From positions 25,394,020-25,458,019 of the forward strand of contig CM020620.1 of assembly GCA_009829735.1 (NCBI GenBank): DNA of 64,000 bases, written 5' to 3'. Source of the stretch: Pyropia yezoensis. Lineage: Eukaryota > Rhodophyta > Bangiophyceae > Bangiales > Bangiaceae. Below are positions 29,310 to 62,152 of the stretch, one piece after another. The notes beneath the pieces were generated by a model. The model saw nothing but the letters and a program-made list of their open reading frames with translations, was not told the DNA's origin and did no database searches. Both the position numbers and the translations under genes were made by a program. Position 1 is the first letter of the stretch, and the number at the start of each line of letters is the position of its first letter.

Positions 29310-29392
29310 GAAAGGCAGACGAGGGGCAACCGGGCTACGCACAGAGCGTCACCGGTTGAAGGCCACCTCTAGCCTGCTTCTCCCAGCGCACG
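29310..29392 (-). repeat. leader cassette, copy a (3' half only)
   Basis: Diverged copy of the shared cassette (sense strand: GAGAAGCAGGCTAGAGGTGG, CTTCAACCGGTGACGC, then GGTTGCCCCTCGTCTGCC). In sense orientation, 156 bases before the start of the 1024-residue gene. No splice donor module is attached here. Confidence 0.8.
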
Positions 29393-29511
29393 CCGGACCG
29401 GAGGACAGGCGGAGGAACCGGTGAGTGGCGGGGAGGGGGGGAGGAGAAGGGCGGAAGGGGGGGGGGGGGGGGGGGGGGGTGGTGGAAAAATAGACTCCCC
29501 CAGGCGGGCAG

Positions 29512-30190
29512 GAGCTCACCGCACCGCACGGCACACCACACCACCGAGTCAGAGGGCGACCACGCCCAGGCGGGCAGAGGCACGCCGCACCACACGCCGC
29601 ACGACACCACCGAGTCAGGAGCTCACCGCACCGCACGGCACACCACACCACCGAGTCAGAGGGCGACCACGCCCAGGCGGGCAGAGGCACGCCGCACCAC
29701 ACGCCGCACGACACCACCGAGTCAGGAGCTCACCGCACCGCACGGCACACCACACCACCGAGTCAGAGGGCGACCACGCCCAGGCGGGCAGAGGCACGCC
29801 GCACCACACGCCGCACGACACCACCGAGTCAGGAGCTCACCGCACCGCACGGCACACCACACCACCGAGTCAGAGGGCGACCACGCCCAGGCGGGCAGAG
29901 GCACGCCGCACCACACGCCGCACGACACCACCGAGTCAGGAGCTCACCGCACCGCACGGCACACCACACCACCAAGTCAGAGGGCGACGACGCCCAGGCG
30001 GGAAGGGGCACACCGCACCCCACCACCAAGTCAGAGGGCGACCACGCCCATGCGGGCACGGCACACCACACCACCAAGTCAGAGGGCGACCACGCCCATG
30101 CGGGCACGGCACACCACACCACCAAGTCAGAGGGGGACCACGCCCAGGGGCACGGCACACCACACCACCAAGTCAGAGGGCGACCACGCC
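29512..30190. repeat. 107-base tandem array grading into 46-48-base units
   Basis: Five units of 107 bases start at 29512, 29619, 29726, 29833 and 29940, nearly identical, each starting GAGCTCACCGCACCGCACGG. Each contains two copies of CACC(G/A)AGTCAG. From ~30031 the period falls to 48, 48 and 46 bases (AAGTCAGAGGGCGACCACGC). A G run at 29459-29479 precedes the array. Frames through it on both strands are by-products. Units are adjacent without unique spacers, so it is a satellite, not CRISPR. Confidence 0.92.
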
Positions 30191-31248
30191 CACGCCGGTC
30201 CATCCATGGCCAACGGGACCAAGGGTAGCTCATGGGGCGCCTGTGAAGCGCTGAATGTGGGCGGTGAATGGGCCGCCATGCAATGGCTGCGAAAGCAGGA
30301 GATGACGCCAAAGCACGCCCAGGCACCCACGCGGGCAGTTTCGGGACGGCGCACCGCACCCGTTCGCCCGTCCGCCCACCTACGTGCCCGTCGGCCTGCC
30401 TGCCCGCGTACCCGCCCGCCCACCCGCCCACCCTGCCAAGCACCCGCGGGCATCGACCGGCACACGGTACGAATAGGAAAGTACGGGGCCGGCCGAAACG
30501 TGATATGTTACGATATGCATATTGAGTCTGTGAGCACCTTCCAGGTGAGACGTATAGAGTAGCGTGGGGGTCGTGGCGAGTCTGTGCAAATCCTCGGGCG
30601 CCCACAGCCGGGAGATTGTGGTCTGTGAGGTTCGTCCGCGGAGAAATTAACAAGGCTCACGGACAAGGCCCTCGGACAAGCTTTGCTTCTGCAGTGGAGC
30701 CCCGTATGTTACCGTACACCGTCCTGACAGACCGTTCCACAAACCACAACTTTTGGGCCGAAGCGGGCACCGCAACGTGCGATCTGCACGCCCATACCCA
30801 TACGTTATTGCCCGGTCCTGGCCCGTACCCACCAGTTAAGGCCCGGTCCTGCATGCCACATACCCACAAGTTACGGCGCTGTCCTGCCGCGCTGGGTCGT
30901 TCCTTGTCTCGAGACGAGCTCCTGGCGATACCCCCCCCCCCCCCCCCTTCACCCCCCTCTCTCCTCTCACCCCGTGGGTCACCTTCCCCGTATCATCTCG
31001 GAGGTGCCGCGGCCGAATGCGGCACGCGTCTATGTCTATGTAGCACAAGTGTCAGCAAGAGACCTGTGTGGCGGGGGACCAAATCGTTTGCGCCACACCC
31101 GACGTCACCCACGCCGGAAGACGGGCTGCCACAAGTGCAGGGACACTCGCCTCCCGTGTGTAATATGCACGCGCCTGCACCCAGCATCGCTCTGTCGCGT
31201 TTGGTGATCACATAATACCATGTCCGCCTCTTCGCTTCCGCTGCCGGC
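30191..31248. other. repeat-rich spacer, no supported gene
   Basis: Contains a CCGCCC(A/G) run (30360-30440), an AT-richer part around 30500-30560, and three diverged ~42-base repeats at 30788-30890 (CCCATACCCA..., CCCGGTCCTG). A plus frame ending at 31207 has two C-x2-C pairs but is short and unsupported. A C run lies at 30931-30947. Confidence 0.45.
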
Positions 31249-31430
31249 GGCCTGCTGCTACAATACATACGGTGCCTTTCGCCCCTTGCAAGGCCCTCCC
31301 GTGCATGTGTGGGCCTCGGAGCCCGGGTGGCCTGCTGCTACAATACATACCGTGCCTTTCGCCCCTTGCAAGGCCCCCCCGTGCATGTGTGGGCCACCGA
31401 GCCCGGGTGGCCTGCTGCGATCACGGCGTC
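31249..31430. repeat. 80-base tandem repeat upstream of the HIRAN gene
   Basis: GGCCTGCTGCTACAATACAT begins at 31249 and 31329; a third partial copy begins at 31409. Units are about 95 percent alike. The array lies ~500 bases before the HIRAN start and may be part of its upstream control region. Confidence 0.85.
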
Positions 31431-31923
31431 GCAGGGTCAGTCACGTATGAAGCCGCGGCTGTCCCTCTTCCGTCCACGGAACTGTCATGCGGCACCGGTC
31501 GGCAACATGGGACCGACGGATTCTGTGACGGGGCGACCAGCTCACAATTCAGACCACAGGTTAGATCGGGAAATTGGGAGGGGCGGGGAGGGGCGAGGGT
31601 GGGGAGAGGGTGGGGAGAGGAAAAAGGCACCGACTAGAACCCCTCTGCAGCACCTCCTTTGCTTTGGGGGAGGCCACGCGCCCCCAAATACCACAGACGC
31701 GAGCAGAGGACGATCTGCCCGGGACTGGCGGCGCAAGGCAACACGACTTCTGCGACTGGCTGGCAGGTCTGGTAGTGACCTGGTAGTGACCGCCGGTACA
31801 CCATCGTACACCACCGCTCACCGCCCGCCCGCCCCCTTTCCACATTGCCCGCATCTCACCCCGCGTCTGCGTACTTTCCCCCCAATCAACAAGGAATCCG
31901 GCTCGTGTCGTCTTTGGTGTACC

Positions 31924-32497
31924 ATGTCTGGGTCGGGCCAGGGGCTGGTTGATTCCCGCACCGTGACCCTGGTGGGTCGCTACTACTATCCCGACAGCTG
32001 GAATCTGCGTTTGGTACGCGGTACACCCGTGAAGCTGGTCCGGAATCCAAAGAACAAGGTGGACCCGTGTGCTGTGGAAGTGTACGTCAACGGTACTATG
32101 GTAAGTGGGCAACGCGTTTCACATGGGGTCACAACGCTTGCCTTTTTTTATGTGATGACCACTCTGGGGTACTGACTGCCACGCCAATGCACTCCCCATC
32201 CTCCTCCCGCCCCCCCTTTATGGTGGCTCGACCGGCTGGCCCGACACCTTTGCCCCGCACGGCGGTCCGACGCTCGTCACCGTGATTGGCCCTCAATGTG
32301 TATTGGAAACTCACTGATTCCCTATTTATCCTGCACAGGTTGGCCATGTGGCTCGGGTATACGCTGGTTGCCTGTCCTCCCTCATGGACAACATGCCTCC
32401 CGAGGTACACCTGACAGCTGAGCTCGGTGGTGTGTGTGGTGACCGGGGCTGGATGGTGCACCCCGACATGGACATTATTGTGTCGCTGTGGGGCTAG
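31924..32497 (+). CDS. stand-alone HIRAN-domain protein, two exons
   Basis: Join 31924-32100 and 32339-32497, giving 111 aa. The intron has a perfect donor (ATG/GTAAGT) and acceptor (CCTGCACAG), phase 0; splicing creates NGTMVGHVARVYAG. The product is essentially one HIRAN domain, the module that binds 3' single-stranded DNA ends at stalled forks in HLTF/Rad5. Matching features: VGRYYYPDSW, GTPVKLVRNPKNKVDPCAVEVY, NGTMVGHV, LSSLMDN and the closing MDIIVSLWG, in the order and spacing of the HLTF domain. No SNF2 helicase, RING or other domain follows; the frame stops six residues after the last strand. The start is the ATG in ACCATGTCTGG. Function is inferred from the domain. Neighbours are repeats and other candidate DNA-processing genes. 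Confidence 0.85.
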
Positions 32498-33183
32498 ATT
32501 GACATCGTCTTGGTCCCCTGTAGTGGGCTCGGTCGTACAGGGTGGGTGGTCAACAACCGTAAACCCTTCCTCGGCCGGGTAGCTGGGCACACCTTTGCCT
32601 CAATTGACGAGGAACTGGGGAGCAGTCAGGAGAACAGACAACAAGGGCCTCACCGCAGCGCCGACCGAGCCGGTGTTGGTCCGCCCCACCCAGCTCGGCT
32701 TGCAACGCTCCGGCCACAGCCTGATGGCGGCGCGCCGTCCCGGTACCCTCCCCTTCCCCCCTCCCACAGCCACCCACGGGTACACCGCCGGCTCGGCCGC
32801 CACCACACCCACCGACGCCGGCACGGCGGCCGGCACGGCGCCCAACCTGACCGCCGCTGCCACAAACTCCATCGCATCCACCTGCAAAGCCACCGGCACG
32901 GCGGCCTTCACGGCCACCGGCACGGCCGCCTTCACGGCCGCCGTCACGGCCGCCTTCACGGCCGCCGTCACGGCCGCCTTCACCGGCACGGCCGCCAAAG
33001 ACGGCACACCCACCAGTGCGGCCGCCAACGCGGCCGCGGCCGCTTTTCCGGCTTGGCCGCCGACACGGCCGGCGCACCCACCGAAGCGGCCGCCAACGCA
33101 GCCGCTCCTTGGGCCGGCCGCATTTCCTGCACGGCCGCCGAGGCCGGCACACCAGGCGGAGGATCCAGGTGGGAGAAGGGGGG
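32498..33183. other. 12-base GC repeats downstream of the HIRAN gene, coding status unclear
   Basis: From ~32880 to 33010 a GGCCGCCTTCACGGCC(GCC) motif repeats. Plus-strand frames read Ala/Thr-rich (TAAFTAAV) and minus-strand frames Ala/Val-rich (VKAAVTAA). Cassette copy b points minus-ward into this region, as at loci with real genes, but neither strand shows a domain. Probably a repeat, or a low-complexity gene I cannot confirm. Confidence 0.35.
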
Positions 33184-33420
33184 GGGGAAGGAGAGGGCAA
33201 GAGCGGTGGGCGGGCGGGAAGGGGCAGACGAGGGGCAACCGGTCCCCGCACAGGGCGTCACCAGTTGAGGGCCACCTCTAGCCTGCCTCTCCCCACGCAC
33301 GCACCGCCCTATACCCACCTTCCCACCCTCCCCCACCACCTCCTCAACACCACCACCTCCTCAACACCCCCCCCCCCCCCCCCCCCCCCTCTTCTTACCT
33401 TGGCCGGGACGTGGCGACAG
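33184..33420 (-). repeat. leader cassette, copy b, with splice-donor half
   Basis: Full cassette on the minus strand: CCAAG/GTAAGAAG donor at 33398, a long homopolymer (C run on plus, 33367-33389), the GGGGAGAGGCAGGCTAGAGG core, and the pyrimidine-rich end. The sequence before the donor (33400-33470) is related to the mini-exon seen elsewhere. No intact gene follows. Confidence 0.8.
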
Positions 33421-35116
33421 GGGCGGGCGCGTGCAAGGCGATGGGGCGGGCACTCTTCATTGTGGCAAAGGGGGTGCGCCTCCACGAGCGGCGGCGTTGA
33501 ACAGTGCGGAGGCAGCGGTGAACAGTGCGGAGGCGGCGGCGGTGGCCGCGTTGGCGCCATGGCGGCGGCGGCGGCGAGGGTGCCCGTGTGAGGCCCATTC
33601 ACAGGTCCCACACCTTCACATGTGATGACGGCCCCTTTCACATGTCCCGACGGCACCCACAAAAAAGCTCGGTCGTACATACTGTCACAGCAGAATATGG
33701 AGTACATAATGTTTAGTCGACATTTCCTGGGACGCCGCGCCAGGGCCGCCACCCGCCGGCGGGCTCCCGCAGGGCTCCCACAGGGCTCCCCCCCCGCACC
33801 CCCCCCCTTTCACATGCCGCCGTCGCCGCCACAGTCGCCACCCCACGCTGGCTCGCGGGCCACGGCAACGCTGCGGTCGGGGCTTCCGCGGGCACGCCCC
33901 CCTCCCAAACCTTCTCCCCCCCCTCTCGCCACCCCGCTCCGCGTCGCCGACGCGGCGGGGGCGCCGCGCGAGGCTGTCCTCTCCCGACCGGGCACTGGCC
34001 GTCAGGGGGAGCGGGGCACCGGCGCGCCCGACGCCACAGCGCTCCCACCCGCCTGCCCTGCCGCGCGGTTGGCGGCGGGCCGCCGCGACAGGCTGGCGGG
34101 CGGGCCCTGCCGCGCGGCTGCCGGCGGGCCGCCTCCGCGACAGGCGGGCGGGCCACCCGGCTCAGGGGGGGTTGCCGCGGCGGTGGCCGGAAAGCACCCC
34201 CTCCTGTTCCCGCTCCTGTTCCCGCTCCTGTTCCCGCACCAACGCGGGTGGCGGGGCGCTGCCGTTGCCGTGGTCGCAGCGGCGACGCCCGCCGCCTCCG
34301 CCCATACCGTCACGGCATCGCAGCCGGGCAACCTCGGCCGGCGGCGGTGGCTACCGGCCTCCTCTGATCCAATTGAGCGTCAGTAACTGTCGCATGGGCG
34401 CATTGCCGCAAGCACGCGCCGGGTCTGGCATCGGATTCAATGGGGTGTTTACAGTGTTGACGTGGACCATGGGCATTGACCGCGGTCCCTCGTTGGGCGT
34501 CGATTCCGACCACCCACCGACGGGGAGCTAGCTAGGCGCACGTCGGCGGCCTGGCACAAAGCGAAAAGGTGCTACGCAACGCACACAAATCCACCCGTCT
34601 CCCATTGCAATCGCCGGAAATTTTACAGGCTACACGCGCGGACGTCATTGGTGCCCTTGGTCAGATCGCACAAGCCATCGTTGCACCGTCAGTCGGACTG
34701 CACCCGTGCCGCTCGCGCGAATCATTCACATGATGTGCAGCCCCCTCCAGTGACTTTCCCGCCCCCCGACTGCCCCCTCCAGTGACTTTCCCGCCCCCCG
34801 ACTGCGAGCACACCCACCGCTTTCCGGGCCGCTTTCACGGCCGCCCGTGCGACCGCCCGTCCATCAGCCGAAGCTGGCCCACCCGCCGGTGGGGCTGCCG
34901 CTGCTGTCGCCGCTGTGACCTTTGTTGAGGCTAGCCCCTCCTCGCTGTGCACATCCCTTCTGCGTGGCCTTGCTTCCCTTCCGGTTTTTTGTTACGCGTC
35001 GCCCCCTCTCCCCGCCCCAACCCCCCGCCATCCCCCCCCCCTCCTGGCGCCGGGACGGCGGGGCCCCTTCCCTCAAGCGACGTCTCTCCCTGTCTAGTGC
35101 GGCGCCTCTGTGGGAA
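33421..35116. other. spacer with short duplications, no supported gene
   Basis: A 254-codon plus frame (33622-34386) and opposing frames are Pro/Ala/Arg-rich without motifs. A 32-base direct duplication (CCCCCTCCAGTGACTTTCCC...) lies at 34739-34802, and AACAGTGCGGAGGC repeats at 33499 and 33520. The region before 35117 should hold the F-box gene promoter, but no core element is clear. Confidence 0.45.
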
Positions 35117-36766
35117 ATGGCGGCACGCCATACTTCGCCATCTTTGCTTGACCTCCCCGACGACATACTGTTCTTGGTGTGCCAAGCGGTTTGTGCTACA
35201 CGCGGCGGCCATGCCGTGTTGGTGCGTACCTGCAAAAAGCTGGCACGCATCGCACGTGAAGCGCTCACGGAGGTCCACGTGCGCCTCCCTCGTCGTCTGC
35301 ACATCGGCTCGTCTCCCCCCTCTTTGGCTGGCGACTGCTTGTGGGGCAGCGACGGTGTTGCAGACGCAAGGGCAGTGTACAGCAGCATGCGAGACTGTCT
35401 GTCTTTGACTTCCTTGGCCTTCCTCTACAACGACCGCGAGACGAGCGATGGGGTGGTCGACCACCTCCCTTGTATAGCGGAGTGGGTGGGTCATTTTTTC
35501 AATACCCTCGTACCCCTGCTTCAGGAGGAGTACGCGTCTGGCACCCGGGGCGAGCGTCGCCACCCGCGACTTTATGCGCTTGCTGTCCACGGCGCTGCCC
35601 TGCGGATTGCAAGCCTCGTGTGGTCGCGGCCCCTGGCGCGGCTGCGTTTCCTGCGTCTGTGTTGTGTGCACACAGACGAGGACACGCCTGCTGTTGCCGG
35701 CCGAATTATTGCGGCGCACGCACCCTCCCTCGAACACTTGGCCGTGCGTTTACAGTGGGGCGATACCCTAGACACTGGAGCAGCCGCGCTCGACGCGGTT
35801 TTTCAAGGCGTTCCCCCCCTTCCGTGCCTCAGCACGCTCATTGTCGTCGGATGTGTCGGCGCCGGGCTTGCCGCGCGGATCGCAGCTCTTTCGCCGGGGT
35901 TGCGGGCGCTGGACGTGGAGGGCGGCCTCTTATCTGGTGCCATGGAGGCGTGGTCGCCCCCCTCCCTTTCCCGCCTGAGTACGGTCTCTCTGGTCTACCG
36001 CAGCGACGTTCCGCGCGACTTTAGGGCCGGCGAGGTCCAGCGGTTTCTCCGGTCGCGCGCGCTACATTACTTGACGCTGGTGCCCCCGGACCCGGACCCG
36101 CCCCCCCCCGATGCGGACCACGAGGCGGGCGTTCCACTTGACATCGCTCTCGCCATCAGCGGCTGTGCCTCCCCACCCGTGACAATCGACTTTACGGGCG
36201 ACTATGTGGGCTGGTCTCCCACCCTTTTTGGGTACCACTGCCTGGACATTATGTTCCAGGTTCCACATGCACGGAGTGTCGCCGATGTGACGATTGCCCT
36301 TCCAGACGACATTCACCAGGACGCCATGCACGTGCTCGGGCGCCTACCCCACCTGTATTCTCTGCACCTGTCTGTAGGGGCAGGGCCCGAGCGGCTTCTT
36401 GTTCCCTGGGTGGTGCCCAACGTGAAAAATCTGTCGGTAGAGTTTCGCGTCCCCCCGGGACCCGCGGCAGCGCTTATCCACGGCCTCGCCGCGGCGGCAG
36501 CGACGGTGACCACCCCCTCCCGGCTCCACACACTTGTGGTGCAGGGCGGGCCGATAATGGACAATTCCCTGGCAGTGCCCCTGCGCTCCCTCCTCCCCTC
36601 TCTTCGATGGATTACCATCGTGCCGCAGTCACCCGAGCAGGGTGGACAGATGGCGGGCTGTCGGGGTGGGGGGGTGGCCGTACCCTCTCAAGACTGTTGT
36701 GTGGAGCACATGGGCGAGTGGATGACCGCGGCGCTGTCCCCGTCGGCTACTGTGAATGTTGTTTGA
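35117..36766 (+). CDS. F-box-like protein with leucine-rich region
   Basis: The 549-residue protein starts at MAARHTSPS; the frame is open 65 codons upstream but that part is pyrimidine-rich leader-like sequence. Residues ~10-50 (LLDLPDDILFLVCQAVC, LVRTCKKLARIAREAL) match the F-box helices, which bind Skp1 in SCF ubiquitin ligases. The rest has irregular leucine-rich strands (LARLRFLRLCCVH, APSLEHLAVRL, LPCLSTLIVVGC, LSPGLRALDVEGG, HLYSLHLSVG, VPNVKNLSVEF), as in FBXL-type substrate-binding LRRs. Composition is balanced and the frame long and intact, supporting expression. No introns are needed. F-box proteins often expand in repeat-rich regions. The substrate cannot be guessed; the F-box call is by eye, moderately firm. 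Confidence 0.78.
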   Translation: MAARHTSPSLLDLPDDILFLVCQAVCATRGGHAVLVRTCKKLARIAREALTEVHVRLPRRLHIGSSPPSLAGDCLWGSDGVADARAVYSSMRDCLSLTSLAFLYNDRETSDGVVDHLPCIAEWVGHFFNTLVPLLQEEYASGTRGERRHPRLYALAVHGAALRIASLVWSRPLARLRFLRLCCVHTDEDTPAVAGRIIAAHAPSLEHLAVRLQWGDTLDTGAAALDAVFQGVPPLPCLSTLIVVGCVGAGLAARIAALSPGLRALDVEGGLLSGAMEAWSPPSLSRLSTVSLVYRSDVPRDFRAGEVQRFLRSRALHYLTLVPPDPDPPPPDADHEAGVPLDIALAISGCASPPVTIDFTGDYVGWSPTLFGYHCLDIMFQVPHARSVADVTIALPDDIHQDAMHVLGRLPHLYSLHLSVGAGPERLLVPWVVPNVKNLSVEFRVPPGPAAALIHGLAAAAATVTTPSRLHTLVVQGGPIMDNSLAVPLRSLLPSLRWITIVPQSPEQGGQMAGCRGGGVAVPSQDCCVEHMGEWMTAALSPSATVNVV

Positions 36767-36814
36767 GGGGCTCCCAGTATAAAGATTTGCTTGCCCTTGG
36801 CGCTACAGCTTGTG

Positions 36815-37166
36815 TCACTCGTGGGATGCGCGAAAGTGAACACTATCGGACAGGGAAGGCCGCCAGCTGGCCGTGGACTGCCCGCTGGTGAGGTTGAGCA
36901 CGGCCCCCCTCACTGTGGGTGTCGGCGATGTGCCCCAGCAGGCGCACCTGCGTGGGCCCCTCATTGACGCCCTTCGTAGGGTGCATCTCGAGGCCCAGCT
37001 CGCCAATGAGCCGCTCCGCGTTGCGGTAAGCGGCCGTGGCCTGTGCCTTGGTGGCCGGTCGGCCCATCAAGGCGGGCGGCGCGCCGTCAAGTCGTTCACG
37101 TAGGCGATGATGCAACAGCCCTGCTCGCACCCGCAGGCAGTACACGACGGGGCGCATCTCCTTCGT
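36815..37166 (-). pseudogene. reverse transcriptase fragment, DIRS-like, broken
   Basis: Read on the minus strand, TKEMRPVVYCLR is followed in another frame by IIAYVNDL, then back in the first frame by AYRNAERLIGELGLEMHPTKG and VRLLGHIAD. This is the order of retroelement RT palm motifs: a TK-x-MRPVV helix, the YxDD catalytic strand (here YVND, one catalytic Asp lost) and the LGL...K...LLG thumb start. Two frame changes break it. It begins exactly at the AG (37168-37167) that ends cassette copy c. It matches the part missing from the element at 51.6-56.3 kb. The left end at ~36815 is about 50 bases past the F-box stop. Confidence 0.75.
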
Positions 37167-37740
37167 CTAGGTGAGCGGCGCGTGCACGGTGGAGGGAGGA
37201 AAGGCGGAGGAGGCGGGTGGGAGAGGGGGGGAAGGAGTGGACAAGCGCGGTGGGCGGGTGGGAAGGGGCAGACGAGGGGCAACCGGGCTACGCACAGGGC
37301 GTCACCAGTTGAGGGCCACCTCTAGCCTGCCTCTCCCCACGCACGCACGCACCGCCCTATACCCACCTTCCCACCCTCCCCCACCACCTCCTCAACCCCC
37401 CCCCCCCCCGCCGCCACCTCCCTCCCCCACTCTTCCTGCCTTGGCCGGGACGGGGCAACAGGGGCGGTCACGTGCACGGTGATGGCCGGTGGGTGGCGGG
37501 CTTCACCGGCCTGGAAAAGGGGGGGGGGGGGGGGACGCCGTGGAGGGAGGAAAGGCGGAGGAGCCGGGTGGAAGAGGGGGGGAAGGAGTGGGAAAGAGCG
37601 GTGGGCGGGCGGGAAGAGGCAGACGAGGGGCAACCGGTCCCCGCACAAGGCGTCGCCAGTTGAGGGCCACCTCTAGCCTGCCTCTCCCCACGCACGCACC
37701 GCCCTATACCCACCTTCCCACCCTCCCCCACCACCTCCTC

Positions 37741-37783
<43 letters not shown>

Positions 37784-38050
37784 TTCTTACCTTGGCCGAG
37801 ACGGGGAGCGTGACAACAGGAGCGGTCACGTGCACGGTAATGGCGAACGTGCTTCCCACGCTTGGGAACGGGGGTGCGACAGCTCTTCCGCGAGCGGGCC
37901 GCGCACGCCGCATGCATGCATGCGCACACAAGCCCACAGCCACCCGGGCCGTCGCGAGGAGCGCGCGCGCGTCACACCCAGTTAAGGGCATATTGGACGG
38001 AGAAGTAGCCCCCTCTTCCACCCCTCGCTGACGACGTCATTCGCGGCGAT
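37167..38050 (-). mobile_element. inverted leader of a DIRS-like element (two intron-like modules, copies d and c)
   Basis: From 38050 downward: the element leader (GCGAATGACGTCGT, TGGAAGAGGGGGCTAC, a GC-alternating run, GCATGCATG, GAGCTGTCGCACCCCCG) also found at 51575-51781; then donor GTAAGAAG at 37790, a C-rich run, the cassette core, and acceptor TTTTCCAG ending at 37511 (280 bases); a 71-base mini-exon 37510-37440; a GC-type donor (AAG/GCAGGA) at 37439; the second cassette; and an acceptor CTAG at 37167. The RT fragment follows. An internally deleted copy of the element at 51.6 kb. Confidence 0.75.
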
Positions 38051-38310
38051 GTATATTGCCAAGTTTGTCGGCACCGTCACCACCGTTTAACCGGGAAGGG
38101 GAAGGGCAGTGTGCCAAAAACGCTAAGCCTTTACTGACCATGGGAGGGAGCTCTAGCTACCATGCAAAGAAAGCTAACTATATCCGCGTCGGCATCGCTC
38201 GACGCGTTCGTACCGTCCGCGCCGGCGTAGCCCGGCGCGGCGCAAGAAGAAAGGGCGGACAGCCCTTCCCGGACGCGCGCGCTAAAGAGCGCGGGGAGGT
38301 CAGGGGACGC

Positions 38311-50937: not shown

Positions 50938-51010
50938 GTTCCCGTTGGTCCAGTTGTGAAGAGGATACGAGCGGCTTGGAGCGGAACCGGGGCCGGTGCC
51001 GGGGTCCGGG

Positions 51011-51046
<36 letters not shown>

Positions 51047-51862: not shown

Positions 51863-51896
<34 letters not shown>

Positions 51897-53497: not shown

Positions 53498-54584
53498 ATG
53501 GGGGAGGGCTCTCCCATCGGGACGGTGGCGGAGGGGAGTGGGGCGGCGACTGCGGTGACCCGAGCGGAGCTCGTGGCGTTCCAGGGGAAGATCGAGGAGC
53601 GCCTTGCGGAGCTGCTCTCTCTGGCCCGCACCCAACCGGGAGATGGGGACGCCACCACCCCCCCGGCGCAGCGGGTGGCTGCGCCGGCTACCGCCCAAGC
53701 TCCGAGACGCGAGCTCCCCGGCAACGGGGGCTCCCGTGAGGACCCAGAAGACAGCCACAGCGCCAACGGCGGCGCGAACGGCGGCGACGGCTGCGCCCGC
53801 GGCGGGCGCGGCGGCAGAACCGATCGTCGCGGTACTGGCCGGGGGGAGGAGGACGTCGCGACGCCCAACCAGTCAGACGACGAGCGGGGCGGCAGCGGCA
53901 GCAGCAGAGACGGCACGCTCCCCGGATGGGGCGGCGGGGGAGGGGCGGACGCGTTTGCGGAGAAGCGCCACGCCCAACGCGGCGCCATCGTCTACCACCC
54001 TGACGGGTTTGACGACTCCAACCTCCCGGCGGCCGACGACATCATTCAGGCCTACGAAGTCCCCGCAGCGGTCCGTCGGCGGGACGGCATCCCCGTGCCG
54101 TTTGAGCCGGCCGATGCGCGCTTCCTCGCCAGGTTCAAGGACGGCTCGTCCGAGTTCCATGAGGCGGCCTTCGCCGACCAAGTCGCGGCGTGGACCCAGG
54201 AGCTGTCTAACGCCGCTGTCGCCCTCTACTACGAGCGGGACTCGTTCTCCGCCGCGGGGATGGCGGACCGCCTCGCCGGTGGGTGCGGCCGTTGCGAGCC
54301 GGCAGCTGTTCCACCTCGCCACGGCGCAGTATGACTACTTGGAGTACAAGCAGCGCGACCCGGTCAGTGCGGCCCTGTACCGCGCGACCGAGGCCGTGCC
54401 TTGCAACACCCTCCGCGGCCCCAAAGGCCGGCGTTGGCTCTCCACGGTGGCCCGTGATGAGGTCAAAATCAACATCAAGACCGCCGCGGAAGAGCGCGCC
54501 AACAAGCACCGCCGGGGTCAAGTCAATCCCGGTGGTGGCGGGGGCGTCGGCAACGGGGCGTCGGCAACACGCCCAAGCGCCTGA
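53498..54584 (+). pseudogene. Gag-like ORF of the DIRS-like element, one frameshift
   Basis: From ATG 53498 (MGEGSPIGTVAEG): a short helix (ELVAFQGKIEERLAELLSLA), a disordered Arg/Gly/Asp-rich stretch, then a structured part (GAIVYHPDGFDDSNLPAADD, FEPADARFLARFKDGSSEFH, AAWTQELSNAAVALYYERDS). Near 54278 the frame shifts; sense continues as VASRQLFHLATAQYDYLEYK and PKGRRWLSTVARDEVKIN until 54584. Helical, RNA-coat-like character and position before RNase H suggest the structural protein. Upstream the frame is open to 52601 through Arg/Pro text including a 117-base direct duplication (52793 and 52910). Gag identity is by position only. Confidence 0.6.
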
Positions 54585-54882
54585 CCAAGGCCGAGCGAAA
54601 GGCAGCAGCCGCCGCCAAGGCCGCAAGCAAGGGCAGCGGTGGTGGCGGAGGCGGCGGCGGCGGCGGCGGGGGCGGGGGCGGCGGCGGGGGCGGCGGCGGC
54701 GGCGGCGGGGCCAAAGCCTAGCCGCGTGCGTTTTGGGTCGGCCCCAGGGGAGGCGGCTTCGCCCCTGGGCGCCATGGAGCGAGAAGCCCTGCCGACCAGG
54801 GGGGACCCCGGCCCCGATTGGCAGTTGCCCGCCACGCCAGCCAACCCGCCGGTGCGCCCGTACGTGGCAGCCAGAGGCGATG

Positions 54883-55473
54883 ATGGCGGAGCTGCGGCTG
54901 CTGGAGCGGTTCTGCGCGTAGAATGGGGTGCAGGTGCGGGCGAGTCACGTGCCCTCGGCGGTCAACCACGAGGCAGACCGGCTGTCCCGAATGGCGGACA
55001 GCACCGACTGGTCGCTATCCGCTGCGGCATTCCAGCGGCTGGAGGCCCTGTATGGGCCACACACCCCGGACCTGTTTGCGACAAGCGAAAACCGCAAATG
55101 CGGTCGCTTCTTCTCAGCCACGGCCAACCCCTGCACGGCTGGCGTCAACGCGTTTGCGCACCCGTGGGTCAACGAGTCAACTGGTGCAACCCGCCGTTTC
55201 AGCTATTGGGGACGGTCGTGGCCGAGATCATCCGCCGGCGGGCGGCGGTCACCCTGGTCGCGCCGGTCTGCCGGGCCCAGGGACGGTGGCACCGGGCGGT
55301 GGAGGCGTGCGTCGCCTACGAGGTGTTGCCGCGGACGGAGGGGGTCTTCACGTACGGCACGCGGGGCACCCCGGCCCCCTCCCCAAAATGGGAGGTGGCG
55401 GCCTTCCGCTTCAACGGCGGGGGCGCAACCCGGTCCCCCGCCTATTGCGGTGGCAGCGGCTCTGTGACCGAGT
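54883..55473 (+). pseudogene. RNase H end plus DAM-methylase-like region of the DIRS-like element
   Basis: Sense starts ELRLLERFCA, meets an in-frame TAG at 54919-54921, and continues NGVQVRASHVPSAVNHEADR LSR, the typical end of the retroelement RNase H domain (VP...N..AD.LSR). Then FQRLEALYGPHTPDLFATSE, RFFSATANP, AGVNAFAHPW; near 55170 one base is missing and the frame resumes as VNWCNPPFQLLGTVVAEIIRR and VAPVCRAQGRWHRAVEAC. NPPF corresponds to the (D/N)PP(Y/F) catalytic motif of N6-adenine methylases carried by DIRS1-type elements. The nonsense codon and the frameshift show it is dead. Confidence 0.78.
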
Positions 55474-55477
55474 GACC

Positions 55478-56342
55478 GGAGCCCGACTGGGCACCGGTGT
55501 GGGCGCCCTCGAGGGCGCTGGGCTGCTGGCGGCGGCGCACCAGACGAGCACCGCCGCTAAGTATATCAACGGGTGGGAGCAGTTTGTCGCGTTTTGTTCG
55601 ACGGCGCGGCTGCAGGCGCTGCCTGCGGCCGCCGAGACGGTGGTCCGGTACCTGGGCTACGTCAAGGCGCTGGGGACCGTGGCGGCCCGGTCGCTGGGCA
55701 ACCGTCTGGCGCCCATCGCCGCGGTCCACGTGCTTGCGGGCTACCCTAGCCCCACCAAGGACGGCCTGGTGCGGCAGGCCAAGCGGGGCTACCGCCACGT
55801 CTACACGGCGGCAACGGGCGCGCGGCCGGAGCGCCGCGGGCCCCTGCCTGCCTCCGCGCTGGAGGCGTTCCTAGACCTCTGGCCCTCGGCGGGCCCCGAC
55901 CTGCGAGACAAGATTGCCGGCACGGCGCTGGCGTTCTTGTTATTTAACCGCCCCGGCGCGGCCTCCCACATGCGGGCGCTGGACATCTTCCCGGCGCGCG
56001 CAGGGTTGGAGGTGCAGGTCCCTGACTACAAGGGGGCGGTGTTGAAGGACGCCGACCGGCTGGCATACACCGTGCCGGTGGCAGCGTGCGGCTGGGCGGG
56101 CGGCCGGGCGCTGCGGATTATCCGCAGCCACTGGCGGGCGCACATGGCGGCCGGGAGGCCACTCGCCGAGCGGCTGTTCGCGCCAGCCGGCACCACCAGG
56201 CCGCTGCCGACGCGCATCGTCACCCGTTGGATGCGGGAGCTGCTCGCACTGACGGCGGTGCGCGCGCCTCTGGGCACTAAGTGGTCTGGACACTCTCTGC
56301 GCGCTGGCGCGGCGTCGGAGGCCCACGCCATCGGCCTGAGCC
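55478..56342 (+). pseudogene. tyrosine recombinase (YR) of the DIRS-like element, C-terminus lost
   Basis: The open frame reads GLLAAAHQTSTAAKYINGWE and VRYLGYVKALGTVAARSLGN (N-terminal SAM-like core-binding domain), KRGYRHVYTAATGARPERR, LFNRPGAASHMRALDIF (first catalytic Arg), DYKGAVLKDADRLAYTVPV, and GHSLRAGAASEAHAIGLSQ (the H-x-x-R box). The expected next helix with the final His/Trp and the nucleophilic Tyr is replaced at ~56343 by unrelated repeated sequence, so the enzyme cannot cut DNA. Upstream the same frame is open to 54923 but is only a shadow of the RNase H/methylase frames. Confidence 0.85.
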
Positions 56343-56446
56343 AGTGTGCGGCCGTCGTAGGCGGCCAAGGAGAGAAGAGGCGCCACCAAGTGACAGGCAA
56401 TCCAGAGAGCAACGCCGCACACGACGGGAGAGTGACAACCCAGCTC

Positions 56447-56478
<32 letters not shown>

Positions 56479-56690
56479 ACCCCCCTCGGAGCGCAGGGCC
56501 ACTCGCTGGCACGGCTTGTAGCCGCAGGAGCCCGGCCAGGTAGATCTTCTCCCCATGATGGGGATGCCGTTGCTTGCGTCCGCAGGTGGCCAGCATGCGG
56601 CCGTCGTAGGTGGCCAAGAACAGAAGAGGCACTCCGAAGTGACAAGCAACTTTGAGAGTAGCTCATGTACAGTAGAGGGCAAGGTGAATC
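56343..56690. repeat. direct repeat replacing the recombinase C-terminus, with C homopolymer
   Basis: CAGTGTGCGGCCGTCGTAGG at 56342 recurs as CAGCATGCGGCCGTCGTAGG at 56588; similarity continues ~75 bases (GGCCAAG..AGAAGAGGC, AAGTGACA.GCAA). A C run at 56450-56478 lies between. The repeat unit belongs to another element that joined here. Confidence 0.7.
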
Positions 56691-57769
56691 CGGGGACCTT
56701 CAGGGTTGGCTCGGCGCTAGCCTGCTTTGTGGCGTCACCCCAGACACCACAAAACGCGTACTTCTCGCGATTGGTGCGCCAAGTCGCACGCCTGCCAAAC
56801 AGACAGTCCGGTGAAATGGTGTGATTCAGCACATCTGATTGGCTCGGCCCAAACTCGGAAACTTTCTGCGGACACGGAATCGCTCAGTTTGGTGCGCACA
56901 ATACTGGGTGGCAACTGCTTTCATGGCCGGTTCGCACGCGCAGGTGTCCTCGCGCCTAGCGACCTCCCACCCACCGTCGGCGTGACCGGGTCGGCGCCGC
57001 GCGGATGCACCGTGGGTGCTCATGCACCGTGGTCAGCGCCCCCGCCGAATGCTTTTTGGTATGCCTTTGCCGTCAGCCTGGTTGCTGTCGTCGTCGAAGG
57101 TCCTCCTGGACGCTACGTGTACCGTCCTTCGGCGTTTGCTGCCCTGACAGCTACGTCCCTACCGGGGGCTTCATCCCCAGTCTTCATCCCCAGTCTCCAC
57201 GCGTAAAGCACTGTTCCTGTCTGTCGCCCTTTCGGGTGACCACGACAAGCTACCTACGCATGGAGGGCCGGCGACCACAAGCGGCACTGTCGCTTCCGTT
57301 GGCACATTTTGGGCGGCTACAAGAAGCCGACTCACGCAAAGTGGGTCGACGACGCAAGCGGTGCTGGTGCTTCCGTGCGCCATTTTGGGCGGCCACGACA
57401 CACCATCCAGGTGCAACGTCGATCGCAAGCGGTGCTGCCTTGTACGTGCCGCACGGTAGGGCGAAGGGTTCTGGATGGGCGGGTTGGGGAGAGGACACGG
57501 CGTTGGGAGGGAGACAGGACACGTCCGTTGCAGCTGTCTGGCGAGTGGGGCGGGGTGGGGTGGAGCGGAGAAGGTGGCGATGCGCCAAGCGTCAGTGTGC
57601 GAGAGTTCATAAGCGACTCTGTTGATGTCACATGTTCCTTCCACTCACCCGCTCCCCTTCCATCATCCGTTCTGTATCGACGGCCACCCTGCCACCACAG
57701 GCACCTTTTTTTCTTTGTTTACATCCTCCCCTTCCCTCGGTGAACCCTCCTTCCCATTCTTCTTTCACC
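56691..57769. other. spacer and probable promoter of the RGG gene
   Basis: Frames on both strands up to ~200 codons lack motifs. Two related ~27-base segments containing CATTTTGGGCGGC occur at ~57306 and ~57381. The pyrimidine-rich leader 57640-57768 precedes the RGG gene start. A TATA box is not evident. Confidence 0.4.
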
Positions 57770-59446
57770 ATGTCCGACTCCGGTGGCCGTGGTCCGGGCG
57801 CAGAGGACACGGATGGCCGCGGTGAGCCACTCTCGACGCCCGTGCAGCAGGGCGCCCCCGCTGTTCGAGGGCCTGTGCTAGGCCGGGGCCCGCCTCCAGT
57901 TCCTGGGTTTGCAGGGGAGGTAGCGCTGGCACCCGCGTGGAGCTGCCCTCCTCGGAGGGTGGCTAGCGCCTGGGAGCAGCCAAGAGACGACCAGCTCCAT
58001 CGTGTCAACACCCACTACGTGCCGGGCCACACTCCGAGTACGGAGTCGACCGGCAGCCTCATGCGCGGCGCGTCTAGAGAGGCTGTCGCTGCAGCGGCTG
58101 CCGTTCCCCCTGCGCCCCCGCCCCCTCCGTCGCCGCCACCACGCTCTTTCTTCCCCCCAGCTCCGCGGCCGGCCGCGCACCCTTTGCAGGGGAGCGCCCA
58201 CGCGACGGGTGAGCCATCCGTGGGTTCGCCGTCCGACTCGACGGGAGGTGGTCTTGCAGTCAGTGGCGGGACGTTGTCGTCGCCGAGTCCCTTGGAGGAA
58301 GAGGTTGCCTATGGGCGAGAGCAAGCTGTCGGTCACGGATCGTCTTTTCTACCTCCCGGCTCACGCGGTCGCAGTCGCGGAATTCGTGGGGGCCGTGGGG
58401 GTCGTGGAGGTCGTGGAGGTCGTGGAGGTCGTGGAGGTCGTGGTGGCGGCATGGGCTTTCCGCTGATCATCGCGCCCCCTCCATCGGACACCCCGACCCC
58501 GAATGTATCTCCCTCTTCACCCGCGTCGGCTTCCGTGCGACGGGTATCGAGTGGCGGGGGGTCTCCGGCAGGGGCTCTTGTAGCTCCGTCTGGAAGGCGC
58601 CCACGGGCTTCCCGCTCCCCATCCCCGAAGCTGAGGGCTGGGGATGTGTCTGTTGCGGCAGCAATGACTGCTGCGGGCGCCACTGCCCTGGACGGCGCCT
58701 CACCAACCACCAACGCAGAGGGGACCGACCTGAAATCGCTCTTTTGTGCCATTACTGCGGCTGTCAAGGCTATGGATGGCAAGATCGTGAGGCTCCAGGG
58801 TGCCGTAGACCATCTGACCAGCCTGGTCACGACGAACGCGGGCATGGCCGACGGCTTGGCTGCTCGCATGCAGGCCACGGCAAGCGCACAGGCAAGCACT
58901 GCGTCGAATCTGGTGGAGTTTCGGGAGCGGGTGTCTGAGGCGCTCGCGGTGGTCGCGGCGGGGGCTCCTACCGGGGCCGTGGGTACCAACTGTGGAGAGT
59001 CGCCTGACGGTGGCGGAGATGGGGCGGCGCAGGAAGTTAGGATGGCTGCCCCAGTTGGGGCGGTGCCGGCCGGTGGTGTGGCACCAGCTTGGGCGGTGCC
59101 GGCCGGTGGCATTGTGGCAGCGCCGGTCAGAGGTGGGGTATTGGCGTCTGGCGGGATGTCGGTGGCGGCGGGTGGGGCACGGGCCGCGGGCCTGATGTCT
59201 GTGGCGGCCGGTAGGTGCCGGAAAGCAGGTGCGGCACGGGCAGCGGGCCTGATGCCTGGGGCGGTCGGTGGGGCGCCGGCCATGGAGTGGGCTCTGTCGA
59301 CTGACCGTGTGCTTGGTGCTGGGGAGAGGCCTGCGGCCAATGTGCCTCCGCAGCCTTCGCCGCTGCACTCTGACGGTCTGTGGGCGCCTGCGCCTGGTGG
59401 GATGCCGAGCGCCGGTGCGCCTACCCCTGGTGATGAGAGTGTCTGA
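57770..59446 (+). CDS. RGG-box protein with coiled coil, probable RNA-binding or retroelement-derived
   Basis: 558 aa from TTTCACCATGTCC; the 46 in-frame codons upstream are pyrimidine-rich leader. An RGG run (about seven RGG units) lies at ~206-230, a typical RNA/G-quadruplex-binding and condensate-forming segment. Residues ~320-400 (DLKSLFCAITAAVKAMDGKI VRLQGAVDHL, ASTASNLVEFRERVSEALAV) form a convincing helix/coiled coil. The C-terminal third consists of short repeats (PAGGVAPAWAVPAGGI, AARAAGLMSVAAGR). The rest is disordered Pro/Ser-rich. The RGG-plus-coiled-coil layout also occurs in retroelement ORF1/Gag proteins; the broken element lies just upstream, so that origin is possible. No family match seen. 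Single exon. Confidence 0.55.
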   Translation: MSDSGGRGPGAEDTDGRGEPLSTPVQQGAPAVRGPVLGRGPPPVPGFAGEVALAPAWSCPPRRVASAWEQPRDDQLHRVNTHYVPGHTPSTESTGSLMRGASREAVAAAAAVPPAPPPPPSPPPRSFFPPAPRPAAHPLQGSAHATGEPSVGSPSDSTGGGLAVSGGTLSSPSPLEEEVAYGREQAVGHGSSFLPPGSRGRSRGIRGGRGGRGGRGGRGGRGGRGGGMGFPLIIAPPPSDTPTPNVSPSSPASASVRRVSSGGGSPAGALVAPSGRRPRASRSPSPKLRAGDVSVAAAMTAAGATALDGASPTTNAEGTDLKSLFCAITAAVKAMDGKIVRLQGAVDHLTSLVTTNAGMADGLAARMQATASAQASTASNLVEFRERVSEALAVVAAGAPTGAVGTNCGESPDGGGDGAAQEVRMAAPVGAVPAGGVAPAWAVPAGGIVAAPVRGGVLASGGMSVAAGGARAAGLMSVAAGRCRKAGAARAAGLMPGAVGGAPAMEWALSTDRVLGAGERPAANVPPQPSPLHSDGLWAPAPGGMPSAGAPTPGDESV

Positions 59447-60093
59447 AGGGGTGGTGCTTGGGCTTTTGGTGTTCCGTAGATGTCGGGGATGATAGGAGGG
59501 GTGGGAGAGTGTGTAGCATGGGGGGTGGTGGGGGTGGTTGTGCTGTTGTTTAAGCAGTGGTAGTTGTGTCCTGCGGACGCACCCTCGAGATAGCGCGGCG
59601 ACGTGATGAACCCCTCCATGCCATTCAGCGGGTCGGCGCCCACGTGGCCAGGGGCTGGGCCCGGCGGCTCGCGGCCGCTGTCGCCACTCCCACCCAGCGC
59701 AACAAGGCTGTCGTCGGCGACGGGCGGGCGACGACGACGGCGACGCGCCGCGGCGAGGCGGGAACTGGTGGCGGCGGCGGTCTCGGCGTCGTGGGTGGTG
59801 GCGTGTGCGGTGGCGGGTGTGGGGCACCTGTTGGCAGCATGGGCGGCGGACGGGCGGCCATCGGGGCGCGCTTCGTGGGGGGGGGGTGTGGGGCTCCACC
59901 GACGGCGGTGGCGGTAGCGGTTGCGGTGGAGGTGACCGCGGCGCCAAACTTCCCCTGATAAGCACGATAGCACGATAGCAAGAACTGTCACCTTTTCCGG
60001 ATAGCCGTCCTACCTTCATTCTTAGACCCCGTGGCCAAGACCCCGTGGCCCAAGAGTGGATGTGATAAGAATGGAAAAAGACTGCAACGTCAC
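59447..60093. other. 3' spacer between convergent genes
   Basis: Contains GT-rich text after the RGG gene stop (59450-59560) and small basic frames without motifs. Segment 59940-60090 is AT-richer (ACGATAGCACGATAGCAAG) and probably holds the 3' end of the zinc-finger gene. Confidence 0.45.
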
Positions 60094-61926
60094 TCAAATA
60101 CCCCGACCCCTGGCCCCCCAGCTACGCGACCCCAAAGGACTCGCCGGACTAGATGGTTCACGCACAGGCCCGTGGCCGTTGCCGTAGCGGGGAGATTCGC
60201 CGTTGCCGTAGCGGGGAGAATCGCCGTTGCCGTGGCGAGGAGAATCGCCGTTGCCGTGGCGGGGAGCACCGCCGTGGCCGTGGCGGGGAGCACCGCCGTA
60301 GTCGTAGCGGGGAGCACCACCGTCGTCGTAGCGGGGAGCACCACCGTAGTCGTCGCGGGGAGCACCACCGTTGCCGTGGCGGGGAGCACCACCGTAGTCG
60401 TAGCGGGGAGCACCACCGTGGCCGTAGCGGGGAGCACCACCGTAGTCGTAGCGGGGAGCACCACCGTAGTCGTAGCGGGGAGCACCACCGTAGTCGTAGC
60501 GGGGAGCACCACCGTGGCCGTAGCGGGGAGCACCACCGTAGTCGTAGCGGGGAGCACCACCGTAGTCGTCGTAGCGGGGACCGGCGCCGTGGCCGTGGCG
60601 GGGAGAAGTGCCGTCGTCGTCGTAGCGGGGGCCGGCGCCGTGGCCGTGGCGGGGAGAAGTGCCGTGGCCGTGGCGGGGAGAAGTGCCGTGGCCGTGGCGA
60701 GGAGAAGTGCCGTGGCCGTGGCTAGGAGAATCGCCGTGGCCGTGGCGGGGAGCATTGCCGCGCACAGCGCTCACCCGAAGGTGAACTGGGCGGACGATAC
60801 GTCCCTCCGATGGGCCAGCCATATGCCCAACACCCGACACCCTGTCCCGCGATGGCAGCCTGCCCGGTATTGACAATGCAGACGACTCCTTAAACTCCCT
60901 GCACGCGACCTCGTGCAACACGCAGTCCAGGCGCTTCCAAAACCGCATCCCACAACAGCCACACGCGTTCTTGACGGGGGGGTGTCCGCGCTTCCACGAA
61001 TCGACCCTTTTCGCGAGGGTCTTGCTGAGGCTTGAGTCAGCTGTCTGCCCCTTCTTGTACTCATATGGCGGGGGGCTTCCCACCCAGCTGGGGGTCTCGA
61101 GACACCGCGCACACGCCGTGGATGGCGGGCCACCAGGAGCAGGCACGCCGCCTACTTTCACCGTTGTAGCGGTCGGGCGGGGCACAGGGGGCTCCTGGCC
61201 ACGCGCACTCCCATCCTCTTGGCGGTGCTGTTCGTCCGACCCACCACCAGACGGCACTGCTGGCCTTGACGCCATGCCAAACGACGCCAGCGGGGGAAGT
61301 GGCACCCGCGGCGGCACCTGTTGCGGAGGTGGCGTCGGCGGCATGCCCTGTCCTGCACCATCTAAGCGAGTCCCCGACGCCAGGACACCCATCCCGGCAG
61401 CTATGATGTCCGCCAGCGCACGTTGCGGTGGCGGCGGAGGCGAGCGCGCTGCCACGTCCTCTTGGCGACACCCCGAGGACAACATGCTGGTCCCGACCGC
61501 AGCCTCACCAATCCCGGCTGTAAGGCCGTCGATGCCGCGCACTTGAGCCGCCAGGACGTCCTCCCGCTTCACTTCTACATCGTCGCCTTCGCCAACACCA
61601 GGCGTATCCGCCCCACCATCGGCAGCGCTTTCCCCAGTAGGGAACACCTGACGGTCGGGGGTGTGAGGCGTTGACGACGCCGATGAACATGATCCACCGT
61701 CACCACCACCACCACCGATGCCATCCTCTACGGGAGAGCGGGTGGATGATGTGCCAGCCCCCATGCGCGCTTGGTCGGCGACAGCAGGTGCGGCCAAGCT
61801 GGCCGCAGCGGCGCTACGACGCGCGCGTCGTCGGCGCTCCGCCAGAGAAAGACGGGCTGGTGGGTTCGCACCCTCACCCGTATTACCGCCACCACCGCGC
61901 TGCCCATCATACCCACCGTCGGCCAT
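60094..61926 (-). CDS. Gly/His/Tyr repeat protein with a possible zinc finger
   Basis: 610 aa from the ATG at 61926 (MADGGYDGQRGG). Residues 1-300 are mostly disordered, with a short helix SLAERRRRARRSAAAASLAA. Residues ~300-360 include CARCLETPSWVG, then CGCCGMRFWKRLDCVLHEVAC, whose C-x2-C...H-x4-C spacing could bind zinc. The C-terminal 200 residues are ~25 copies of GGAPRYDYG/GTSPRHGHG units. A candidate acceptor CTCCTACCGCAG/GCG ends at 61937, 11 bases before the ATG, and cassette k lies ~85 bases upstream, so the gene may begin with a 5'-UTR intron. Function unknown; Tyr/Gly/Arg-rich repeats suggest RNA or condensate behaviour. Zinc binding is inferred. Confidence 0.6.
   Translation of the reverse strand: MADGGYDGQRGGGGNTGEGANPPARLSLAERRRRARRSAAAASLAAPAVADQARMGAGTSSTRSPVEDGIGGGGGDGGSCSSASSTPHTPDRQVFPTGESAADGGADTPGVGEGDDVEVKREDVLAAQVRGIDGLTAGIGEAAVGTSMLSSGCRQEDVAARSPPPPPQRALADIIAAGMGVLASGTRLDGAGQGMPPTPPPQQVPPRVPLPPLASFGMASRPAVPSGGGSDEQHRQEDGSARGQEPPVPRPTATTVKVGGVPAPGGPPSTACARCLETPSWVGSPPPYEYKKGQTADSSLSKTLAKRVDSWKRGHPPVKNACGCCGMRFWKRLDCVLHEVACREFKESSALSIPGRLPSRDRVSGVGHMAGPSEGRIVRPVHLRVSAVRGNAPRHGHGDSPSHGHGTSPRHGHGTSPRHGHGTSPRHGHGAGPRYDDDGTSPRHGHGAGPRYDDYGGAPRYDYGGAPRYGHGGAPRYDYGGAPRYDYGGAPRYDYGGAPRYGHGGAPRYDYGGAPRHGNGGAPRDDYGGAPRYDDGGAPRYDYGGAPRHGHGGAPRHGNGDSPRHGNGDSPRYGNGESPRYGNGHGPVREPSSPASPLGSRSWGARGRGI
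60150..60765. repeat. 24-base in-frame repeat array in the zinc-finger gene
   Basis: GGGGAGCACCACCGTAGTCG-type units of 24 bases (occasionally 27), about 25 copies in two subtypes coding APRYDYGG and SPRHGHGT on the minus strand. All keep frame on the minus strand; the Val/Ala/Gly text on the plus strand is a shadow. Confidence 0.9.
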
Positions 61927-62009
61927 GGTGAGACGCCTGCGGTAGGAGAGAACAGCAGGCGCCGTGCGACTTGGCCGGGATTGGGGGGGGAGGGGGGGGG
62001 GACGGCGTG

Positions 62010-62152
62010 GAGGGAGGAGAGGCGGAGGAGCCGGGTGGGAGAGGGGGGGAAGGAGTTGGTGGGCGGGCGGAAAGAGGCAGACGAGGGGCAACCGGGCTAC
62101 GCACAGGGCGTCACCGGTTGAAGGCCCACTCTAGCCTGCCTCTCCCCTTGTC
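62010..62152 (-). repeat. leader cassette, copy k
   Basis: Same core and pyrimidine tract as the other copies, sense to the gene starting at 61926. Its outer end reads AGCCAAGACAAGGGGAGAGG, the variant also seen in copy g, lacking GTAAGAAG. Confidence 0.88.

Follow-up and report, generated by a model that had tools for sequence, protein, structure and literature searches.

Why should one short, GC-rich cassette recur, mostly in sense, just ahead of several different genes within a single locus of the red alga Pyropia yezoensis? The question arises from a stretch of 64,000 nucleotides (C3:25394020-25458019), hereafter the window, which lies on one of the three large contigs (C1, C2 and C3) of a genome of 107.5 Mb. 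According to the original prediction, the cassette is a free-standing promoter or 5'-untranslated-region (5'-UTR) intron, mobile or recurrently copied, that unrelated host genes had recruited. Our analysis points instead, with a probability that we put at roughly 0.6, to a promoter or 5' leader shared by the genes of a large, probably mobile, multi-gene block family, in which the repeated cassettes would double as exchange points. A search of the open-licence PMC literature by titles and abstract openings returned no description of either cassette or block, which does not imply that they are unpublished.

We found the cassette core at all eleven places for which it had been claimed, a count far above chance, as a core 16-mer gave 11 matches in the window at no more than two mismatches where 0.04 were expected. 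The 20-mer GAGAGGCAGGCTAGAGGTGG has 8 exact copies in the window and 11 at no more than two mismatches, while GGTTGCCCCTCGTCTGCC has 10 exact copies and 11 at no more than one mismatch. The hairpin cores, named by the genes listed further below, are the following:

29314..29382, minus strand: hairpin core copy 1, precedes the GIY-YIG-candidate gene
33223..33291, minus strand: hairpin core copy 2, with a donor-like site, faces the 3' side of the HIRAN gene
37267..37335, minus strand: hairpin core copy 3, in an array of two, faces the 3' end of the 549-aa gene
37618..37686, minus strand: hairpin core copy 4, in the same array of two
39040..39108, minus strand: hairpin core copy 5, precedes a Gag-like gene fragment (38307-39292 matches 53417-52427 at 95%)
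47129..47197, minus strand: hairpin core copy 6, precedes the helicase gene, TATA-like site 26 nt ahead
47998..48066, plus strand: hairpin core copy 7, precedes the Ala/Gly gene
51955..52023, plus strand: hairpin core copy 8, in an array of three
52268..52336, plus strand: hairpin core copy 9, in the same array of three
52616..52684, plus strand: hairpin core copy 10, in the same array of three, precedes the Gag-like gene, TATA-like site 27 nt ahead
62076..62144, minus strand: hairpin core copy 11, precedes the Zn-finger gene

Across the whole genome the core was matched 126 times at no more than two mismatches, and a reversed control pattern not once. These matches are clustered and often form tandem units of ~345 bp. 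Among the core matches listed, we surveyed 75 arrays (111 cores, the 8 window arrays included). These arrays form 23 clusters, all on the three large contigs, and in 17 of the clusters at least two arrays stand together. Array flanks were classified by matching on the sense strand, and comparisons on both strands were also made. We determined that 68 of the 75 arrays lead into a module that is found behind another array too, namely the HIRAN side (13 arrays), the GIY-like gene (11), the helicase (11), the Ala/Gly gene (8), the leucine-rich-repeat (LRR) gene side (6), the Zn-finger gene (6), a copia-like module (5), x29 (4), Gag (2) and gag39, a Gag fragment (2). As for the other seven, five carry no label and two match only a reference drawn from themselves (x76 and x83_87, each defined from the one locus matched, and both counted as unassigned). 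The x29 and copia-like references, too, each stem from a locus within the group so labelled, yet they match other loci; the name copia-like is a presumption of ours, based on reading the translation and not on a database search. The LRR-gene side and x29 coincide over the first 160-310 bp, and behind three arrays that bear the LRR-gene-side label the sequence goes over into x29. None of the assigned arrays has a flipped module in the both-strand comparisons. The whole-assembly search confirms a recurrent and clustered core, but the assigned arrays lead into block modules, and none of the 75 was seen to lead into an identified single-copy host gene.

The cargo behind a given upstream flank differs between loci. 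Behind each of the eight cassette-headed Ala/Gly genes, at a distance of 3765-4349 bp, comes a further cassette array, whose upstream flank is the same in all eight. The slot behind this array holds the helicase in two cases (C2:8.37 and C3:26.22 Mb), a Gag-like gene in two (the window and C2:26.38 Mb), the HIRAN side in one (C1:10.83 Mb) and the x29 type in three (C1:21.03, C3:26.40 and C1:30.87 Mb). The last of these slots is labelled LRR-gene side but continues into x29 and was counted as x29 type, which makes four cargoes. Of the 11 arrays that lead into the helicase, 7 have the helicase's own upstream flank, 2 have the Ala/Gly flank and 2 are unassigned. Since one upstream flank occurs with differing cargo, the cassettes are points where blocks differ. 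An exchange at one fixed nucleotide was not borne out by the cassette alignment, in which homology ends differ between modules, the comparison being one of cassettes and not of junctions base by base.

The four supposedly unrelated non-element genes of the original prediction turned out to be, all four, multi-copy parts of one repeated multi-gene block. Its minimum extent in the window and its genes are as follows:

24846..63906, no strand assigned: repeated block, minimum extent (63907-64000 is N; neither end is a proven terminus)
26080..29154, minus strand: 1024-aa open reading frame (ORF), the GIY-YIG candidate
31924..32497, plus strand: HIRAN gene in two exons (31924-32100 and 32339-32497), Pfam 4e-13 as joined product
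35117..36766, plus strand: intact 549-aa gene, LRR-like at E 0.016, below cut-off
41440..46944, minus strand: 1834-aa superfamily 1 (SF1) helicase, AAA_11/AAA_12
48389..49717, plus strand: 442-aa Ala/Gly-rich gene
52802..54334, plus strand: 510-aa Gag-like ORF, label taken from the original prediction
55520..56339, plus strand: coding region of a truncated tyrosine recombinase with low-scoring similarity to Cre, best E 0.0007
57632..59446, plus strand: 604-aa ORF with no assigned function, also in C2:26.38 and C3:26.23 Mb
60094..61926, minus strand: 610-aa gene, the Zn-finger gene of the original prediction

Three other loci remain 98.7-99% alike for 2.4 kb more beyond this extent. The main pieces of the segment C2:26372304-26391022 are 91-99% identical to window positions 41365-62191, of which 54873-56865 is lacking there, and at C2:8.358-8.385 Mb the gene order is GIY-like (minus), HIRAN side (minus), Ala/Gly (plus), helicase (plus) and Zn-finger (minus). 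The left homology edge differs between copies, lying near 24846, 25296 or 25530, and the right one is still not reached 3.3 kb beyond the Zn-finger cassette. Position 25296 was considered as an element end and rejected, as the copy at C2:8.358 Mb matches 24846-25296 and that at C1:19.93 Mb starts at 25530; an apparent right-hand end in another locus (L045) is a run of N. At window 25297-25796 lie ~500 bp that end in an A-rich run; the C2:8.36 Mb copy has different DNA in their place, and they may be a separate small insertion. Window 62366-63325 is unmatched in three related loci, where the sequence from 63326 onward comes soon after the cassette; an ORF at 62784-63368 reads like a possible fragment of a pogo/Tigger-type transposase, and it has no Pfam support. 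To the left of the block lie two probable host genes on the plus strand, one encoding a SET/AWS/PWWP/Tudor protein of the histone methyltransferase type (8473-12519) and the other a cytochrome c/c1 heme lyase (20954-22981).

Pfam scans covered 20 of the 80 ORFs listed for the window, plus further pieces, and several of the names under which the block genes were introduced gained no support from them. The GIY-YIG label finds no support in Pfam, and the predicted structure of the protein is poor (predicted local distance difference test score, pLDDT, 45). An HA domain is only weakly matched, in two of five family members (best E 0.0055, below cut-off). The GIY-YIG identity was rejected. The protein search gave this ORF no relatives beyond four proteins of P. 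yezoensis and a single 57% relative, which lies on a contig of 3.2 kb; that relative (P0128) gives a weak HA-domain match and may derive from another species. Just upstream of the GIY-YIG-candidate cassette lies a 107-bp tandem array (29509-30192; 5.8 copies by Tandem Repeats Finder), and matching sequence is present upstream in 11 of 11 examined copies of this cassette. The Gag label has no Pfam support either, and the Zn-finger gene has no Pfam match. The helicase is 97% identical, over the region searched, to P. yezoensis I4F81_010086. HIRAN domains mostly occur within larger helicase or nuclease proteins, and a stand-alone HIRAN-domain protein of 111 aa within a repeated block is unusual; its reading frame is intact in the three other copies compared.

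We found that the invariant part of the cassette is a GC-rich imperfect hairpin of ~75 nt. In the five genes named by the original prediction, which start at 29154 (minus), 46944 (minus), 48389 (plus), 52802 (plus) and 61926 (minus), the hairpin lies in sense and ends 118-323 nt before the ATG. Between these five gene-proximal copies an 80-nt hairpin stretch has a mean identity of 88.7% (81-99%), while the 80-nt flanks show 29% upstream and 48% downstream; the mean column identity of the core is 95%. Six window copies fold with z scores between -3.2 and -5.9, and for the 40 copies listed among 42 distinct hairpin copies the folding energy lies between -45 and -59 kcal/mol. Slid structures keep 45.7-53.2% of pair cells across the 42 copies, compared with 95.7% for the hairpin itself, and the two commonest variants exchange G-U for G-C. 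No Rfam family was matched at gathering threshold in the window. A microRNA precursor was also considered and rejected, the weak matches to the hairpin, far below cut-offs and on both strands, being taken for look-alikes.

The promoter or 5'-UTR-intron part of the original prediction survives in modified form. A shared leader fits the polarity of the modules, the hairpin is conserved above its flanks, and TATA-like sites lie 26-27 nt ahead of the core at the helicase and Gag gene copies, with the same TATAG shared by the remaining array copies of the window in the alignment. As for an intron, the donor-like sequence GGCCAAG|GTAAGAAGAG is present in 45 of 49 aligned rows of array units (4 of the 45 with GC for GT), the remaining 4 rows being off-target. 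It is often preceded by a stretch of 63-78 nt that follows a pyrimidine tract ending in CAG. However, the four single copies at 29.4, 47.2, 48.0 and 62.1 kb, which precede the GIY-like, helicase, Ala/Gly and Zn-finger genes, align without the donor. The putative exon, where its CAG|G start can be placed, is mostly 63, 64, 67, 71 or 78 nt long; since these lengths do not differ by threes, a repeated coding exon was rejected. In the leaders that run from the hairpin to the ATG of the five genes, a further ATG is absent from three and occurs once in each of the other two, near the start codon.

Codon comparisons between block copies reveal purifying selection on the helicase. Its ratio of nonsynonymous to synonymous substitution rates (dN/dS) is 0.44 against the copy at C3:26.24 Mb (p 4e-6), 0.40 against the open part of the disrupted copy at C2:26.37 Mb (p 0.002), 0.40 against that at C2:8.37 Mb (p 0.002) and 0.39 against that at C1:21.01 Mb (p 0.002). 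A fifth copy, at C1:10.82 Mb, yielded no comparison. With values of 0.39-0.44 in four comparisons, the helicase, at least, therefore functions in several of its copies or did so until recently. The Ala/Gly gene gives 0.44 (p 0.002) against C2:8.37 Mb and 0.64 (p 0.056) against C1:21.02 Mb; its C2:26.38 Mb copy, open over 63 codons only, differs by 3 synonymous changes and no others. The 549-aa gene and its counterpart at C1:21.02 Mb give 0.31 (p 0.004), the C1:1.27 Mb copy is identical, and the C2:8.37 Mb copy is partly covered, with an indel of 2.

These features suggest how a leader shared within a block family could work. The hairpin would be the functional heart of the cassette, beginning near the transcription start, and array copies would add a non-coding exon and a splice donor upstream of it. 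Block genes would carry the cassette in sense because gene and leader were copied as one. Tandem cassettes, ~95% alike in the core, may provide the repeated homology for unequal exchange, which would gain or lose cassettes and swap the module downstream. In this way the cargo joined to the flank on the 3' side of the Ala/Gly gene could have come to be the helicase, Gag-like, HIRAN-side, x29/LRR-gene-side or copia-like module. A leader that moves along with its gene, together with homologous recombination between tandem cassettes, is the simplest mechanism to propose. It is inferred that the cassette drives transcription, that modules are swapped by homologous recombination and that the blocks transpose.

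Several observations weigh against this shared-leader reading. The claim that the cassette is always in sense stands for the five genes named above, but the HIRAN gene is tail-to-tail with the cassette at 33.27 kb and the 549-aa gene with the cassette pair at 37.3/37.7 kb, so that the rule holds for some genes only. Because a module is copied together with its cassette, its copies cannot be counted separately, which leaves about five independent placements in sense and two exceptions. A TATA-like site was not found ahead of the GIY-like, Ala/Gly and Zn-finger gene copies. In the 42 distinct hairpin copies none of 31 pairs is changed on both sides, and pair retention is no higher than in column shuffles; the fold is possible, and selection on pairing is unproven for these two reasons. 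Selection was not shown for the 604-aa gene (dN/dS 0.76, not significant), the GIY-like gene (1.14, with only 21 changes) or the HIRAN gene, which compared with three copies is identical or gives 2.3 and 0.33 (0, 8 and 2 changes). Both the helicase and the Ala/Gly gene have broken copies at C2:26.37-26.38 Mb. No transposase was matched in the ORFs scanned, which are a part of the block, and neither element ends nor target-site duplications were established at the block; therefore, plain segmental duplication may account for its spread. The helicase is thus not intact in every copy: at C2:26.37 Mb (L039) its reading frame falls into two open parts, one of 1257 codons and one of 430.

Among the alternatives, the one that fares best, although we hold it to be rather unlikely, is that the cassette is the 5' terminal region, LTR- (long terminal repeat) or split-repeat-like, of a block-resident retroelement with Gag and tyrosine recombinase, which recombination between copies spread to neighbouring genes without any regulatory role. 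Arrays of the ~345-bp unit directly precede the Gag-like ORF in the window and at C2:26.38 Mb, and in the window the truncated tyrosine recombinase lies 3' of that ORF. The recombinase has thirteen closer relatives, 51-96% identical; it breaks off at 56339, the point from which homology to another module extends, and lacks the C-terminal part that most relatives have. It may be either a block gene or a nested fragment. A retroelement is not easily reconciled with the scanned window ORFs, none of which matched reverse transcriptase, protease or integrase (nor did the further pieces match reverse transcriptase), with a hairpin more conserved than its flanks, or with the cassette counts, since the cassettes before the helicase (11), the GIY-like gene (11), the Ala/Gly gene (8) and the Zn-finger gene (6) are more numerous than those before Gag (2) and its fragment (2). 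A viral origin was rejected: the two protein families searched in IMG/VR, the GIY-like family and the recombinase, have no relatives there, and a core 18-mer matches 2 contigs, reckoned without a control to be about chance level.

It is unlikely, too, that the cassette is a passive repeat, i.e., a functionless GC-rich quasi-palindrome spread with its adjoining genes by segmental duplication and gene conversion, its sense placement inherited from one ancestral arrangement. The copying of modules together with cassettes, the two tail-to-tail genes and a hairpin without covariation would all suit such a repeat, but five different genes have little in common save the hairpin, which lies 118-323 nt before the ATG.

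We consider it quite improbable that the block is a nuclear integron-like gene-shuffling element, whose hairpin would be both promoter or leader and the site of an element-encoded tyrosine recombinase, with helicase, HIRAN, Zn-finger, recombinase-linked and other genes as exchangeable modules of fixed polarity. Comparably doubtful, though attractive, is an integron-like system in which the hairpin is the site of a tyrosine recombinase and modules are exchanged site-specifically, perhaps via folded single-stranded DNA. The long imperfect inverted repeat, the Cre-like recombinase fragment within the block and fixed-polarity cassettes with differing cargo are in its favour; against it, homology ends vary both up- and downstream between modules, which resembles ordinary recombination and decay, and the window recombinase is truncated, its stretch (54873-56865) missing altogether from the C2:26.38 Mb copy. 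Least credible is the original idea of a free-standing leader recruited by unrelated host genes, which would explain one leader in sense before different genes and the donor-like sites of array copies but not the 68 of 75 arrays that lead into modules of one block family, the lack of any identified single-copy host gene behind them, or the four gene-proximal copies without a donor.

If the shared-leader reading is true, it describes a mobile-element architecture in which a single leader unit both controls several genes jointly and marks the point at which genes are exchanged, and the gene set would therefore behave as a self-rebuilding regulon. The block resides in a cultivated edible red seaweed (nori) with a chromosome-level genome. 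It also calls for caution, as the same promoter found before unrelated host genes can be the sign of a multi-gene element with host-like cargo.

Large multi-ORF repeats have been described in another red alga, Chondrus crispus, where giant En/Spm transposon families of 16-20 kb carry 4-5 ORFs (Kojima et al., 2013, via PMC6431247). The P. yezoensis block resembles them in being large, multi-ORF and repeated; unlike them, it revealed no transposase in the ORFs scanned and no CACTA-type terminus, and the consulted part of PMC6431247 makes no mention of a leader hairpin common to several genes. LTR retrotransposons carry gag-pol between a pair of direct repeats, with a target-site duplication; the cassette arrays also head genes of other kinds. 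DIRS/PAT-type retroelements combine a reverse transcriptase with a tyrosine recombinase, and helicase and HIRAN genes are not known to be part of that family. The block shares with them a Gag-like ORF and a tyrosine recombinase in one neighbourhood, but it has no reverse transcriptase match in the ORFs scanned and includes helicase, HIRAN and other genes. Introners are repeated units that bear splice donor and acceptor, are spliced out and are flanked by target-site duplications. Similar to them, the array units are repeated, donor-bearing and in sense to genes, yet the four gene-proximal cassettes have no donor, and cassettes precede genes instead of lying inside reading frames. All cassette copies looked at belong to modules or arrays, and none was identified as an independent insertion. 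Mouse L1 elements begin with tandem promoter monomers at the 5' end, and a varying number of tandem promoter-like units likewise heads the repeated element here, with the difference that the P. yezoensis unit heads many different genes. Integrons (PMC6431247), finally, have in common with the block a tyrosine recombinase nearby and exchangeable modules of fixed polarity. The attC sites of integrons are imperfect palindromes able to fold into hairpins, a potential that the cassette shares. The block is set apart from integrons by its nuclear eukaryotic genome, its varying module edges and its truncated recombinase, and, whereas integrons have one common promoter, each module of the P. yezoensis block has a leader of its own.

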